Below are positions 20,912 through 35,099 of a stretch of 35,334 nt of DNA, in pieces. The notes beneath the pieces were generated by a model. The model searched no databases. It saw only the letters and a list, made by a program, of their open reading frames with translations, and was not told the origin of the DNA. Each line of letters starts with the position of its first letter. Positions within the stretch are counted from its first letter, which is position 1. The DNA is from Planctomycetia bacterium (GTDB taxonomy: Bacteria; Planctomycetota; MHYJ01; WSZJ01), in assembly GCA_020849035.1 (NCBI GenBank), contig JADLHC010000105.1, forward strand, positions 1 to 35,334, read 5' to 3'. The position numbers and the translations under genes were made by a program.

Positions 20912-21970
20912 TTAGTCGAGGAACTCGACCAGCAGCCCGGACTTCGGGCGCACCTCCCCGATGACCGCCGAGTGCGGGAACCCCTGTTTCCCCAGGTCCC
21001 GCACCAGCGCGTCGGCCTGGCCCGCGGGGAGGGTGAACAGGAGTCCGCCCGACGTCTGCGGGTCGAACAGGACGTCCTCGAGCGACTTCCGGATCCCGGC
21101 CGCGGTCCGGTACTTCGCGCCGAGGAACTCGCGGTTCGTGACGTCGCCGCGGGTCTTCTGGCCTTTCGACGCGAACTTCTCCGCGTCCGGGAGGACGGGA
21201 ACCTTCGAGGCGCGGATCGCCAGGGTCACGCCGGACGCCTCGGCCATCCCGGCGCCGTGCCCCGCGAGCGCGAACCCCGTGATGTCGGTCGCGGCGTGTA
21301 TCTCCTTTCCCTCCGCCGCAGCCACGCCGCCTGCGTTCAGCTGCTCCATCTGCGCGATGAGCTCCCCGGCGTCCTTCTCCGGGAACTTCCTCGCCTTCAT
21401 CGCCGTCGTCAGGATCCCCGTCCCCAGCCGCTTCGACAGCACCAGCGCGTCCCCCGGCTTCGCCTTCGCGTTCGTCCAGATCCGGTCCGGGTGCACGAGC
21501 CCCGTGATCGCCGCACCGAACTTCAACTCGTCGTCCGTCACGCTGTGCCCGCCCAGGAGCGCGCACTTTGCCTCGGCGTACTTGTCGTTGCCGCCCGCGA
21601 GGATCTCGTGGAGCACCTCGGGGCCGAGGGCGTCCATCGGGTAGCAGAGGATGTTGAGGCCGTTGATCGGCCGGCCGCCCATCGCGTAGACGTCCGACAG
21701 GGCGTTGGCGATCGCGATCCGCCCGAAGGTCCGGGGGTCGTCCACGATCGGAGTGAAGAAGTCGACCGTCTGCACGAGGGCCCGCTCGGCGTCCAGCCGG
21801 TAGACACCGGCATCGTCGAACGTCCCCGCGTTCACGAGGACGTTCGCGTCGGTCGGCGCCGTCAGCCCCTCCAGGGCCTTATGCAGGTCGGCCGGACCCA
21901 GCTTGCTCGCTCAACCGGCGCAGCTCGACATGTCCGTCAGCCGCGGCCGGCCCTTGCCGAAGATGCCCAT
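20912..21970 (-). CDS. selD: selenide, water dikinase with UGA-encoded selenocysteine (Sec20)
   Basis: Makes selenophosphate from selenide and ATP, the selenium donor for Sec and selenouridine. The true gene starts at ATG 21970 (GGAG 8 nt upstream) and reads through TGA at 21913-21911. The N-terminus is MGIFGKGRPRLTDMSSCAGU, followed by ASKLGPADLHKAL, putting Sec20 at the position of E. coli Cys17. The essential Lys follows as K23. The second Cys of the usual C/U-G-C-K motif is Ser here (U-A-S-K). Downstream motifs are intact: DFFTPIVDDP, ANALSDVYAMGG, DITGFALAGHG and DPQTSGGLLF. Total 352 residues. Without recoding, a caller would begin at GTG 21835 and lose the active site. A hairpin just after the TGA fits a bacterial SECIS. 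Confidence 0.93.
21884..21913 (-). promoter_or_regulatory. candidate bacterial SECIS hairpin in selD
   Basis: On the minus strand the Sec TGA (21913-21911) is followed by TGGGTC (21900-21895), loop CGGCC and GACCTG (21889-21884). This is a 6-bp stem with two G-U pairs. The apical loop begins 16 nt after the TGA and has a G among its first two bases, which fits the bacterial SECIS model as I know it. Confidence 0.5.
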
Positions 21971-31259: not shown

Positions 31260-32630
31260 CTATGCTCCGAGCCACCGAATCACGGCTTGGACCGTCGCCT
31301 TCAAGTCCCCCGCGAATTGACGATCAGGGATCTCCTTTCCGTCGGCGCCTTCCAGGCTCGCGCTGATCTGTTCCCCGAGTCCTCCGCCGTGGAGGCGGCA
31401 CCTGGTTCCTCCGCTGGCCGAGACCAGGATCTCCAGCCACTGTTGCCGCTGCACCGGAACGGCACGCAAGGTGCTCCCGCAGGCGGCGAACTCGCGGTTG
31501 ATGCGCCCTGGGAGCGGATCATCGACGTTTCCGAAGTACGGGGTCTCCGTTTCCTTGGCGAGTGCCGCCTCGACGACTTTGAACACGTCCCCATCAGTTC
31601 CGGCCAAGGACTCGCCACTTCTCCCGCGGAATTGGACCGTGTAGGGTTTCTCCTTCGCCTCTTGGCCAGCAGTCGGAGAAATGATCGGAAGACCGGACGT
31701 GTCGAATGGGTAGAGCGAACAGCGGCTGAAACAAAGCCGGTCGAGGCTGGTGAATGAGAAGAATCGCGAGACAACCTCACTCTTCACCACTCTATCGAGC
31801 AGGGGCCGGTAGAACTTCAGAACCGAATCCGTCTGCGCCTGGCACAACACGTTGCCCCAGTGCCAGGCGGCGTAGATCCCTTCCTCCAGCGCTCCTCCAA
31901 GCGGGTGGCGCTCGACTTCAGGCGCCGCCTCGTGAATTGCGGTAGTCGTCGCTGCTTCGTCGATCCACTTCCTGACCACGAGTGCCGCGCGGTCCTCGGC
32001 GAGACCGTCTCCCGTCGCCACCTGGGTTCGATGCAGTAGCAGAGCGATGCTGATCGAGTCGCCGGTGCCGGCCGTCAGTCGAGCGGAACGCGGGGCTGAG
32101 TAGACCCAGAGCTCGGCGCTCTCTCGGCTCAGCATCCTCTCATCGAGTCCGACGCGTGCGACGCCTCCCTGTTGCGAGAGACGGGCATTGACTCGGGCGG
32201 CGATGTCCATCAGCCGCCGACGCTCCGCATCGACGAAGGGGTGCCTTGCCTGCAGAGCCTCGGTTGAGACTCCTTCGACCAGCCAGTCTCGAACGGCCGC
32301 GAGAACCGGCGCCAGCTCTGGAACTCGGCCGGTTGGTCGCTCGGGCGTCTCGTCCTTGAACTCGACAAGATACTCAGGCCCCCGTCGGACGGCCGGGGGA
32401 GGTCCAACGTTGACCTTCGAGAGGTGCGCGTTGCCTCGAACGCCGAGGTAAAGGACGGCTGAGTTCTCCCCGCAGAAGAAGCAGTTCATCCGGCAGGAGC
32501 GGGGCCCATGGCTCGCATCGACGTGCCAGTGAACGCCTGCTCCTTCCGTCGCGACCCGTACTCCAGACGGTCCGAGAGCTGTCTGAAGCCTCGTCTGGAG
32601 ATCTCGTGCCAGCTTCTCCCCTGGGTGCAT
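31260..32630 (-). CDS. protein of unknown function (456 aa)
   Basis: I do not recognise this family. It is predicted cytosolic, with no signal peptide or membrane segment. Visible features are an N-terminal helical stretch, a CxxC in SCRMNCFFCGENSAVLYLG (around residue 50), and KVNVGPPPAV. A helical middle carries VDAERRRLMDIAARVNARL, and a His/Trp-rich segment reads ERHPLGGALEEGIYAAWHWG. A second cysteine-rich segment is SLDRLCFSRCSLYPFDTSG. ATG 32630 has a strong ribosome site (GGAGG at 6 nt), supporting a real gene. Its base use looks less GC-rich than neighbours, hinting at transfer. It lies 83 bp downstream of the selenocysteine thioredoxin-like gene on the same strand, so the two could be co-transcribed. 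Confidence 0.7.
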   Translation of the reverse strand: MHPGEKLARDLQTRLQTALGPSGVRVATEGAGVHWHVDASHGPRSCRMNCFFCGENSAVLYLGVRGNAHLSKVNVGPPPAVRRGPEYLVEFKDETPERPTGRVPELAPVLAAVRDWLVEGVSTEALQARHPFVDAERRRLMDIAARVNARLSQQGGVARVGLDERMLSRESAELWVYSAPRSARLTAGTGDSISIALLLHRTQVATGDGLAEDRAALVVRKWIDEAATTTAIHEAAPEVERHPLGGALEEGIYAAWHWGNVLCQAQTDSVLKFYRPLLDRVVKSEVVSRFFSFTSLDRLCFSRCSLYPFDTSGLPIISPTAGQEAKEKPYTVQFRGRSGESLAGTDGDVFKVVEAALAKETETPYFGNVDDPLPGRINREFAACGSTLRAVPVQRQQWLEILVSASGGTRCRLHGGGLGEQISASLEGADGKEIPDRQFAGDLKATVQAVIRWLGA

Positions 32631-32713: not shown

Positions 32714-33271
32714 TTACGTCACCAGCCACCTCACCCGCGTCGCCCACGTCGACGCCGGCCAGCCGTCCGCGAGTTCCTTCCACGCGAGCTTGGCCGCCTC
32801 GATGCCGCCGGTGCGGCGGAACTCGCTGACGCCGAGCCAGTACATCGCCTCGGGTGTGCGGTCGTGCCGCGGCGAGCGGGCGACGAGGTCGCGGAGGCGG
32901 CGGGAGGCGGTGTCGAAGTCGCGGGCGTCGAGGGAGGCGCGGGCGAGGCCGTAGGCGGCTTCGGCGAGGAAGTCGGCGGGGGGCATCCAGCCGATGGTCT
33001 GGTGGAGGATGGTGCCGTCGGGGAGGGCGGCGAGGATGGTCGGCGTCCAGACGATGCGGAGCTTCTTCGCGACCTCGCGGTGCTCCTTGACGTTGACCTT
33101 CACGGCGACGAAGTTCGTTTCCACGAACGCGGCGACGTCAGGCGATGGATACGTATCCGCATCCAGTTTGGCGCAGGCGGGTCACTGGGGGGAGAAGGCG
33201 TCGATGAGGAGGGGGCGGTTGGTGGCGGTGGACTGCTGGAGGGCGGAGGACCAGGTGGCGGACCAGATCAT
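32714..33271 (-). CDS. thioredoxin-fold protein with selenocysteine (Sec30, UPAC motif) and TPR-like C-terminus
   Basis: From ATG 33271 (GGAG 6 nt upstream) the frame runs through TGA 33184-33182 to a TAA at 32714, 185 residues in all. Around the TGA it reads LLIDAFSPQ-U-PACAKLDADTY. This is a thioredoxin active site in which Sec30 replaces the first Cys of CxxC, the resolving Cys33 being kept. The fold continues with FVETNFVAVKVNVKEH, IVWTPTILAALPDGT (cis-Pro region) and the helix PADFLAEAAYGL. It ends in a TPR-like pair of helices (FDTASRRLRDLVARSP, EAMYWLGVSEFRRTGG, WKELADGWPASTWATRVRW). Similar Cys-type proteins with this C-terminus are known among bacterial thioredoxin-family proteins. 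Without recoding the gene would start at GTG 33124 with no redox centre. A SECIS-like hairpin follows the TGA. Confidence 0.86.
33146..33184 (-). promoter_or_regulatory. candidate bacterial SECIS hairpin in the thioredoxin-like gene
   Basis: After TGA 33184-33182 the minus strand has TGGAT (33165-33161), a 10-nt loop starting GC, and ATCCA (33150-33146). The loop begins 21 nt past the TGA. An alternative inner pairing is GGAT-ACGT-ATCC (33158-33147). Both fit the spacing rule for bacterial SECIS. Confidence 0.5.
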
Positions 33272-33329: not shown

Positions 33330-33362
33330 TGGTAACGGGGGTTTTCGCGGAGGTGTTGCGTG

Positions 33363-35099
33363 ATGAGCGCTGAAATCAGGCACTTGCCCTTGCCCACCGT
33401 GCGGCTGTCACGAGGCCGGGCGCGTTCCTGGGTGTGGAGTGGGCAAGGGCGAGGGAGAGCGAGCCGTGGGCTTGCGGTGGTGTTGTTCCTTGCGATGGCG
33501 CTTCCCTGCCTGGCAGAAGATTGGAAGGCGGAGCAGAAGAACGTCGCGATCCCGATGAGGGACGGGCAGGCGCTCGCGGCGGACGTGTACCTGCCGGAGA
33601 AGGAAGGCCGGTACCCGTGCGTGCTGATCCAGACGCCGTACAACAAGCGCAACATGGGCGCGGTGATGGCGCTCGAGGGGACGGCGATCGGCGAGACGGG
33701 GCGCGGCGCGGCGAGCGACATGAAGGTGCTGATGGACCGCGAGCACTACGCGTACGTCATCGTGGACTGGCGCGGCTTCTACGGCTCGAAGGCCGCCGCG
33801 AAGCCGCTGGCGAAACGCGGCCCGGACGGCTACGACTGCGTCGAGTGGATCGCGGCGCAGCCGTGGAGCGACGGGAAAGTGGGGACGTGGGGCGGCAGCG
33901 CGCTCGGGAAGCAGCAGCTCGACACCGCCGCGGAGCACCCGCCGCATCTCGTGTGCTGCGTGCCGCTCATCGCTGCGATGGGGCAGGAGTACGCGATGTA
34001 CTACGAGGGCGGCGTCATGCTGGAAGGTCACGTCAAGCGCCTCGACCAGCTCGGCTTCGGCGTCGGGACGGCGGTGTCGGCCGCGCCGAACCCGTGGGCG
34101 CCGGTGTGGAAGCTCGCGGAGTCGCGGTCGTACAAGCCGGAGCTGATCGAGGTTCCGTGCCTGATGATCACGGGGTGGTGGGACAACTATCCGGACCTCG
34201 TCGTGAAGACGTTCGAGGGGATCGTGGCGAAGGGCGGGGACGCGGCGAAGTCGGGCTCGCGGCTGCTGATCGGGCCGTGGGACCACGTCGGCGTCGGCGT
34301 GGCGAAGCAGGCGGACATGACGTTCGAGAAGGCGTCGCTGGAGTCGGCGCGCGCCGCGAAGGCGTTCCTGGACTACTGGCTGCGCGGGGTGAAGGACAAC
34401 GGGTGGGACAAGACGCCGCGCGTGCGCTACTGGGTCGTGAACGAGGAGGAGTGGCGGACGTGCGAAGCGTGGACGGCGGTGCCGCGCGAGACGAAGGCGC
34501 TCTTCCTCACCGCGGACGGCCGGCTCGCGGCGGAGAAGCCGCAGAAGGACGAAACAAAGACGTGGACGTTCGACCCGGTGGATCCCTCGCCCACGCTCGG
34601 CGGCGCGAACCTCCCGCCGATGCCGCACGGCCCGACCGACCACTCGGCGCTCTCGCAGCGCAAGGACGGCGCGTGGTACGCGACCGGCAAGCTCGAGAAA
34701 CCGATCCGCCTGAACGGCAACGCCGAGCTCACCATCGCCTTCGAGGCCAATGCTCCCGACTGCGACTTCACCGCCCGCCTGTGCGACGTCGCCCCCGACG
34801 GCAAATCCCTCCTCATCGTCGAGACCGCCGCGCGGGCGAAATTCCGCGACGGCGGCAACGAGGCCCATCCGCTCGAGGTCGGCAAGCGCGTCACGCTGAC
34901 GCTGCGCTTCCCCTCGACCGCCACGACCTTCCCCGCGGGCCACGAGCTGCGCGTCTACGTCTCCAACACGAACTGGCCGCGCTACGAGCGGAACACCGGC
35001 ACCGGCGCCGACCACTGGGACGAAAAGGCCGCGCAGCCGGTGAAGGTGAACGTGCATCACGACGAGAGCGTGCTGCGGTTGCCGATCGTGAAGGAATGA
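33363..35099 (+). CDS. S15 / CocE-NonD family alpha/beta hydrolase, secreted
   Basis: A 578-residue hydrolase of the X-Pro dipeptidyl-peptidase/cocaine-esterase family, acting on an ester or amide bond. After a basic lead of about 36 residues comes a hydrophobic signal segment (GLAVVLFLAMALPCLA). The catalytic domain has VPMRDG-type IPMRDGQALAADVYLP, IVDWRGFYGS, the nucleophile elbow WGGSALG (S179), PCLMITGWWDNYPD and GPWDHVG with the likely catalytic His. The C-terminal jelly-roll has GELTIA-like NAELTIAFEANAPDCDF, VTLTLRFPSTAT and ELRVYVSNTNWPRY. ATG 33363 has GGAGG 9 nt upstream; GTG 33360 is also possible. A 12-bp inverted repeat lies in the first 30 codons. The palindromic repeat starts 8 bp after the stop. 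Substrate is unknown. Confidence 0.9.
   Translation: MSAEIRHLPLPTVRLSRGRARSWVWSGQGRGRASRGLAVVLFLAMALPCLAEDWKAEQKNVAIPMRDGQALAADVYLPEKEGRYPCVLIQTPYNKRNMGAVMALEGTAIGETGRGAASDMKVLMDREHYAYVIVDWRGFYGSKAAAKPLAKRGPDGYDCVEWIAAQPWSDGKVGTWGGSALGKQQLDTAAEHPPHLVCCVPLIAAMGQEYAMYYEGGVMLEGHVKRLDQLGFGVGTAVSAAPNPWAPVWKLAESRSYKPELIEVPCLMITGWWDNYPDLVVKTFEGIVAKGGDAAKSGSRLLIGPWDHVGVGVAKQADMTFEKASLESARAAKAFLDYWLRGVKDNGWDKTPRVRYWVVNEEEWRTCEAWTAVPRETKALFLTADGRLAAEKPQKDETKTWTFDPVDPSPTLGGANLPPMPHGPTDHSALSQRKDGAWYATGKLEKPIRLNGNAELTIAFEANAPDCDFTARLCDVAPDGKSLLIVETAARAKFRDGGNEAHPLEVGKRVTLTLRFPSTATTFPAGHELRVYVSNTNWPRYERNTGTGADHWDEKAAQPVKVNVHHDESVLRLPIVKE

Follow-up and report, generated by a model that had tools for sequence, protein, structure and literature searches.

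A gene at positions 32714–33271 on the minus strand of the window very probably encodes a cytoplasmic selenoprotein, judging from its sequence and that of its relatives. The protein is predicted to be a disulfide oxidoreductase of the thioredoxin (Trx) fold with the active site UPAC, in which selenocysteine (Sec) would be placed at codon 30 under the direction of a hairpin and a TPR tail would target clients. The window, the whole stretch of DNA that was analysed, has a length of 35,334 nucleotides and constitutes one entire contig (C105) of a 5.4 Mb draft genome from the Planctomycetota that is 89% complete. We infer Sec insertion because the TGA is conserved, the hairpin that follows it covaries and the selenium machinery of the genome is complete. 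Since gene finders either end the gene at the TGA or begin it past that codon, proteins of this Trx-TPR type are easily split or missed in annotation.

Gene structure and conservation of the TGA codon

The frame runs from the ATG at 33271 to the TAA at 32714 and comprises 185 codons in addition to the stop. As the original prediction stated, it is broken only by a single internal TGA (codon 30, 33184–33182). The start codon is backed by a probable Shine-Dalgarno sequence, GGAG, 6 nt upstream on the same strand (33281–33278), and a stronger GGAGG is found at the homologous start in two other genomes (G001 and G003). The TGA takes the place of the first cysteine of the redox motif (Q-U-P-A-C, within SPQUPAC), which corresponds to the N-terminal, attacking position, and the resolving Cys33 is retained as a TGC at 33175–33173 that is invariant among the aligned Sec forms in both alignments (A1 and A2). 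Trx-type sequence was expected on either side of the TGA, and the Pfam family Thioredoxin_2 indeed matches residues 16–103 over the curated cut-off (3.8e-11) and spans the codon; Thioredoxin_7 is likewise placed across it over the first 103 residues. PF13098 scores 43.7 bits against a cut-off of 27, and its UxxC motif is present. The Trx-fold domain occupies residues 1–103 (33271–32963) according to Pfam, the AF2 model and Foldseek, and includes Pro77 of a WTP motif (33043–33041), which is invariant in alignments of 18 and of 42 sequences and which we take to be the cis-Pro of the Trx active site. The remaining residues, 104–185 (32962–32717), form a TPR-like helical tail with the motif APEAxYWxGV and a glutamate, E141, that does not vary across the homologue alignment. 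Pfam TPR_16 matches residues 107–153 of the tail weakly and under its cut-off, and the fusion itself, another point of the original prediction, is seen in the AF2 model and conserved across the Trx-TPR family.

Within the genus, purifying selection acts on the frame downstream of the TGA, with dN/dS values of 0.19–0.40 by Nei-Gojobori counting, which are rough owing to the large distances. To avoid favouring TGA, 99 genomes were searched with a query in which Cys stood in for Sec; full-length homologues were found at 75% and 58% identity within the genus and at approximately 24–38% elsewhere, with TGA at the same codon. Chance is excluded, because this codon remains TGA in homologues with 75% and 58% identity and down to about 25–35%. 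Among 392 Planctomycetota genomes, a profile census detected 65 full-length genes (E < 1e-42), of which 64 have TGA at this codon; in 395 genomes from the phylum that surrounds a Desulfomonile genome, 95 genes were recovered, 84 with the TGA and 11 lacking it. The profiles behind both sets of counts were built from Sec forms only, so that diverged Cys forms may be under-collected. Named homologues occur in metagenome-assembled genomes (MAGs) of the Desulfobacterota, Nitrospirota, Nitrospinota, Chloroflexota and Planctomycetota. The window protein, used as query, found no match in the named genome collection; when a relative's protein was used, the search patterns included the SECIS-coded peptide MDAVTYPD, which biases the resulting all-TGA outcome, and the TGA counts are therefore those of the two censuses.

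Some relatives depart from the simple pattern. One homologue (L146, G154:C1:23925-24458) has an extra in-frame TAA about 30 codons past the Sec TGA, through error or early decay, and two C-terminal remnants that lack the Trx half (L145, G227:C1:790298-790561; L144, G327:C34:13455-13736) resemble decayed copies. Two Trx paralogues (L045, G009:C236:2286-2588; L046, G016:C40:9198-9503) contain two in-frame TGAs, the second of which lies in the sequence IPDTUILGPDG just past the cis-Pro loop, at a position occupied by Arg in some relatives; it may be a further Sec, be read in an unusual way or reflect decay.

The SECIS hairpin and the selenium machinery

A hairpin with six base pairs and a hexaloop, GGAUGC-GGAUAC-GUAUCC, is located at 33164–33147 on the minus strand. 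The original prediction of a SECIS-like element 3' of the TGA thus holds for its presence but not for its spacing, which is 17 nt, counted from the final base of the TGA, instead of 21. Bacterial SECIS elements are recognised as stem-loops just downstream of the codon with a small apical loop containing a guanosine (PMC1088965), and the hairpin has these features. Its folding energy is unremarkable relative to shuffled sequences (z of −0.8 to −1.4, not significant) and was discarded as evidence on its own, and an Rfam search of the window returned nothing over threshold. The hairpin is significant by comparison across homologues. In a gapless alignment of 90 homologous sequences with seven proposed pairs, standard pairing is found in 99.4% of cells as compared to a shuffled mean of 91.0, and the covariation score is 0.276 versus 0.124 after shuffling; none of 500 shuffles reached either value. 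Sliding the two strands against each other abolishes the covariation signal.

The compensatory changes are found along the stem and into the loop. Of the 90 sequences, 77 have A-U and 11 have G-C at pair 23-36; pair 24-35 switches once to C-G, and pair 27-30 takes on five standard types (36 CG, 30 AU, 15 GU, 4 GC and 1 UA of 90). Columns 27, 30 and 33 each fall on the third base of a codon (Ala, Val and Thr codons in most members). The Thr at the SECIS site is encoded by ACG in all 90 sequences, as opposed to 127 of the 514 Thr codons elsewhere in 64 genes of the genome collection, which derive from contigs with 37–75% G+C. Covariation at third positions together with the fixed ACG indicates that the RNA is under selection in addition to the peptide. 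Most sequences have the loop N-G-U-N, the outer bases of which can pair. G23 and U24 are named as conserved apical-loop sites of prokaryotic SECIS elements (PMC8659212), and third-position covariation flanking a G-U loop is as in the SECIS loops that SelB recognises. The genus of the window departs from the canonical GU with the loop GGAU (G-A rather than G-U). The loop covariation amounts to a natural experiment on what SelB reads, with GGAU as a variant loop.

The genome encodes SelA, a SelB with the winged-helix domains SelB-wing_2 and SelB-wing_3, and selC, all three genes having been named beforehand as those whose absence would count against Sec. There are two tRNA-Sec genes with the anticodon TCA (G000:C207:368-459 and G000:C85:90747-90838). 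They are about 80% identical and could reflect a true duplication or a contaminating contig, C207 being only 4.5 kb long. The Sec-type selD that had been reported from the window is present on its minus strand at 21970–20912, where the selenophosphate synthetase is identified by TIGR00476 (355 bits, over the cut-off) and by AIRS domains; it carries its own in-frame TGA at 21913–21911 within the motif SSCAGUASK. Among the 49 planctomycete genomes that carry the TGA form, 46 have SelA over its cut-off, compared to 262 of the 392 overall; the three remaining genomes (G272, G269 and G327) have SelB over the cut-off, and SelA is also present in 25 of the 26 carrier genomes reached via named MAG loci. 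One TGA carrier, G760, has no SelB over the cut-off, which is probably due to a gap in the draft genome.

When the host genome was scanned with a purpose-built SECIS model, five sites were recovered (on contigs C105, C15, C33, C16 and C44), each of them in frame after the TGA of a Trx-fold gene. The host lineage is rich in Trx-like selenoproteins. Five further Trx-fold genes (C15:22763-23044, C33:64-345, C16:24006-24053, C295:19958-20269 and C44:8614-8925) have an in-frame TGA at the position of the first Cys; most come with a SECIS of this kind and several have longer tails, and the gene on C15 adjoins a Cys-only paralogue.

Two readings of the TGA compete with Sec. The codon is one base away from TGC and TGT and is seen here in a single draft MAG of 89% completeness, so that it could be a wrong base call, or a damaged Cys codon in a dead gene. 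The chance of this is practically negligible given that the same TGA recurs in well over 100 separately assembled genomes of several phyla, that selection acts on the sequence past it and that the hairpin covaries. The residue inserted cannot be read from DNA alone, and the TGA might be decoded as Trp or Cys under a changed code or simply be read through. This too is very unlikely: a dedicated, covarying hairpin follows the TGA; SelA, SelB, SelD and tRNA-Sec are all encoded in the genome; and in those forms that keep the xxC partner, the alternative at codon 30 is Cys. A neighbouring hydrolase gene moreover ends at TGA (table 11), and hence the codon is still a stop in this genome.

Fold, relatives and proposed function

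The AF2 model, built with 42 homologues (pLDDT 96.9, pTM 0.90), shows a Trx fold and, from residue 98 onwards, five helices. Profile searches place the Trx part nearest to 2kuc and DsbD-gamma and the tail nearest to YbgF/CpoB, and the top Foldseek match is E. coli YbbN (3qou) in a mixed alignment. No NCBIfam family scores over its cut-off with the window protein. The gamma domain of DsbD (1uc7, 2fwe) is among the best Trx matches by both profile (7e-12) and fold, but the window protein is free-standing, without a membrane or alpha domain, and has a TPR tail and Sec; it was rejected as DsbD since PRK00293 scores 28.1 versus 330 bits and covers the gamma domain only. The tail helices match the TPR repeats of YbgF/CpoB and BamD (2xev, rmsd 1.4 over 84 columns), which, unlike the window protein, are envelope proteins without a Trx domain. 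Classical Sec-thioredoxins (PF00085, UxxC) share the UxxC Trx fold but not the tail, and provide a precedent for Sec working at the attacking position (Kim et al. 2015, as cited in PMC13188914). Among the NCBIfam seleno models, TsoB was rejected with 30.5 of 805 bits over the Trx part only, while at the threshold applied trx7_PDZ and VPGUxxT match only a few members of the family, the window protein not among them.

The original prediction had favoured a dedicated redox enzyme over a housekeeping thioredoxin. The protein lacks WCGPC, and classical thioredoxin was rejected at 30.2 versus 96.8 bits for the equivalog TIGR01068; this makes the suggestion plausible, the dedicated role itself being only inferred. 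The window protein is probably cytoplasmic, as it begins directly at the Trx domain in the same manner as the Desulfobacterota members. The members of one family (f50) and the G377 protein have an apparent signal peptide, and some lineages such as f50 therefore seem to use the same module outside the cytoplasm.

On present sequence evidence, the protein most likely acts in the cytoplasm as a selenolate disulfide reductase, with clients selected by its tail. It is proposed that SelB, bound to the hairpin just 3' of the UGA, delivers Sec-tRNA-Sec to codon 30. Sec30 would attack a disulfide (or other oxidised sulfur) of the client, Cys33 would resolve the mixed selenenylsulfide, and the enzyme would be re-reduced, possibly by the canonical thioredoxin reductase that is encoded in the genome. 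By binding a client or partner the TPR-like tail would create a targeted reductase, which from its fold and conservation may have the layout of a short CnoX/YbbN with a DsbD-gamma-like Trx domain.

CnoX/YbbN is cytoplasmic and likewise joins an N-terminal Trx fold to C-terminal TPR helices, and Caulobacter CnoX combines chaperone and redox activities (PMC6282202). The tail could by analogy be a holdase or GroEL-docking surface, as in CnoX, with Sec guarding clients from over-oxidation, and the Trx-TPR layout and the top rank of YbbN in Foldseek agree with such a chaperedoxin. It is nevertheless unlikely: CnoX proteins carry WCGPC, WCXPC or SxxC (PMC6282202), all absent here, and are longer (about 282 versus 185 residues), and the window protein has a Trx domain closer to DsbD-gamma and a short tail closer to YbgF/CpoB. 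Identity with CnoX/YbbN was rejected on the alignment to 3qou (query TM 0.41, target TM 0.28, rmsd 11.4, 16% identity). It is quite possible, if somewhat short of probable, that the gene is merely a new occurrence of the catalogued 'thiol:disulfide interchange protein' selenoprotein (PF13098/cd02953, UxxC), which has the same type of Trx domain, Sec at the attacking position and a bacterial SECIS, and also occurs in deltaproteobacterial lineages. The window protein passes the PF13098 cut-off with the same UxxC motif; a list from 2006 places the catalogued protein in Syntrophus (S. aciditrophicus) and Geobacter, and the Trx-TPR family has members in the Syntrophaceae. The 'Trx-like 2' group of the marine GOS set has been assigned to the DsbD-gamma domain cd02953 (PMC2398784), and UxxC selenoproteins of the DsbD-gamma/PF13098 type have been known for about two decades. 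Nothing decisive stands against this identification; a TPR tail is mentioned in no catalogue entry, the comparison being with the description of the catalogued protein (reference WP_011366075.1).

The unusual points of the Trx-TPR family are its near-exclusive use of Sec and its wide distribution. The DsbD-gamma-like proteins of the GOS set are by contrast mostly Cys forms, with 22 Sec versus 2,098 Cys forms or about 95 Cys to 1 Sec (PMC2398784). A 2026 inventory of 119 selenoprotein families has no Trx-TPR entry, and the subfamily is not named separately in NCBIfam either. That this is an unrecognised, almost obligately Sec family of the five phyla listed above, acting as a selenium-dependent chaperedoxin or as a targeted reductase with clients of its own, is a tentative and rather unlikely proposal. 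Being nearly all Sec, the family lends itself well to asking why certain enzymes retain selenocysteine.

Cys forms at the Sec position and genomic neighbourhood

Cysteine homologues at position 30, by which the Sec reading was to be judged, were found in four genomes: G377 (CSGC), G432 and G704 (both CVGC) and G536 (CGGC). G377 contains the sole planctomycete form without the TGA, in the context HHPLCSGCKK. The hairpin has disappeared from this gene (AAGATTATAACAGATACTCTTCC versus ATGGATGCNGTNACGTATCC in Sec forms), and its sequence is also absent from the Cys forms of G432, G704 and G536. SelA was not detected in the G377 genome, and its best SelB-like matches (204 bits) are under the cut-off. 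Although its branch is long and uncertain, the G377 form groups within the Sec family in the tree, a placement that favours replacement of Sec by Cys over an ancestral Cys.

The 11 non-TGA genes of the second phylum comprise three with CxxC (G432, G704 and one of those in G536), six with CxxS, in which the resolving Cys is lost, and two without either residue; SelB is over the cut-off in five of the nine genomes that carry them and not in the other four. The members of one sub-lineage of the family on the Desulfobacterota side (L169 and L171–L177), some in genomes without SelB over the cut-off, have Cys in place of Sec and Ser in place of Cys33 (CEGS, CAGS) or have lost both residues, and yet keep the TPR tail. 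That most of the non-Sec lineages are degenerate (CxxS or neither residue) suggests that the redox function tends to decay after the loss of Sec. As most of these rare lineages lack the resolving Cys or the whole redox centre, the function may be selenium-dependent.

The hydrolase gene mentioned above is the divergent neighbour of the Trx-TPR gene (33360–35099, plus strand); it belongs to the CocE/NonD family, is conserved in the genus and has no known functional link. An all-against-all comparison of the flanking ORFs at 64 loci revealed no conserved operon partner, only one broad cluster with scattered positions and otherwise sparse clusters of 4–5 loci. Downstream of the Trx-TPR gene, the minus strand of the window contains a 456-residue ORF (31260–32630) with a weak match to DUF6193 of 20 bits, which is below the cut-off.
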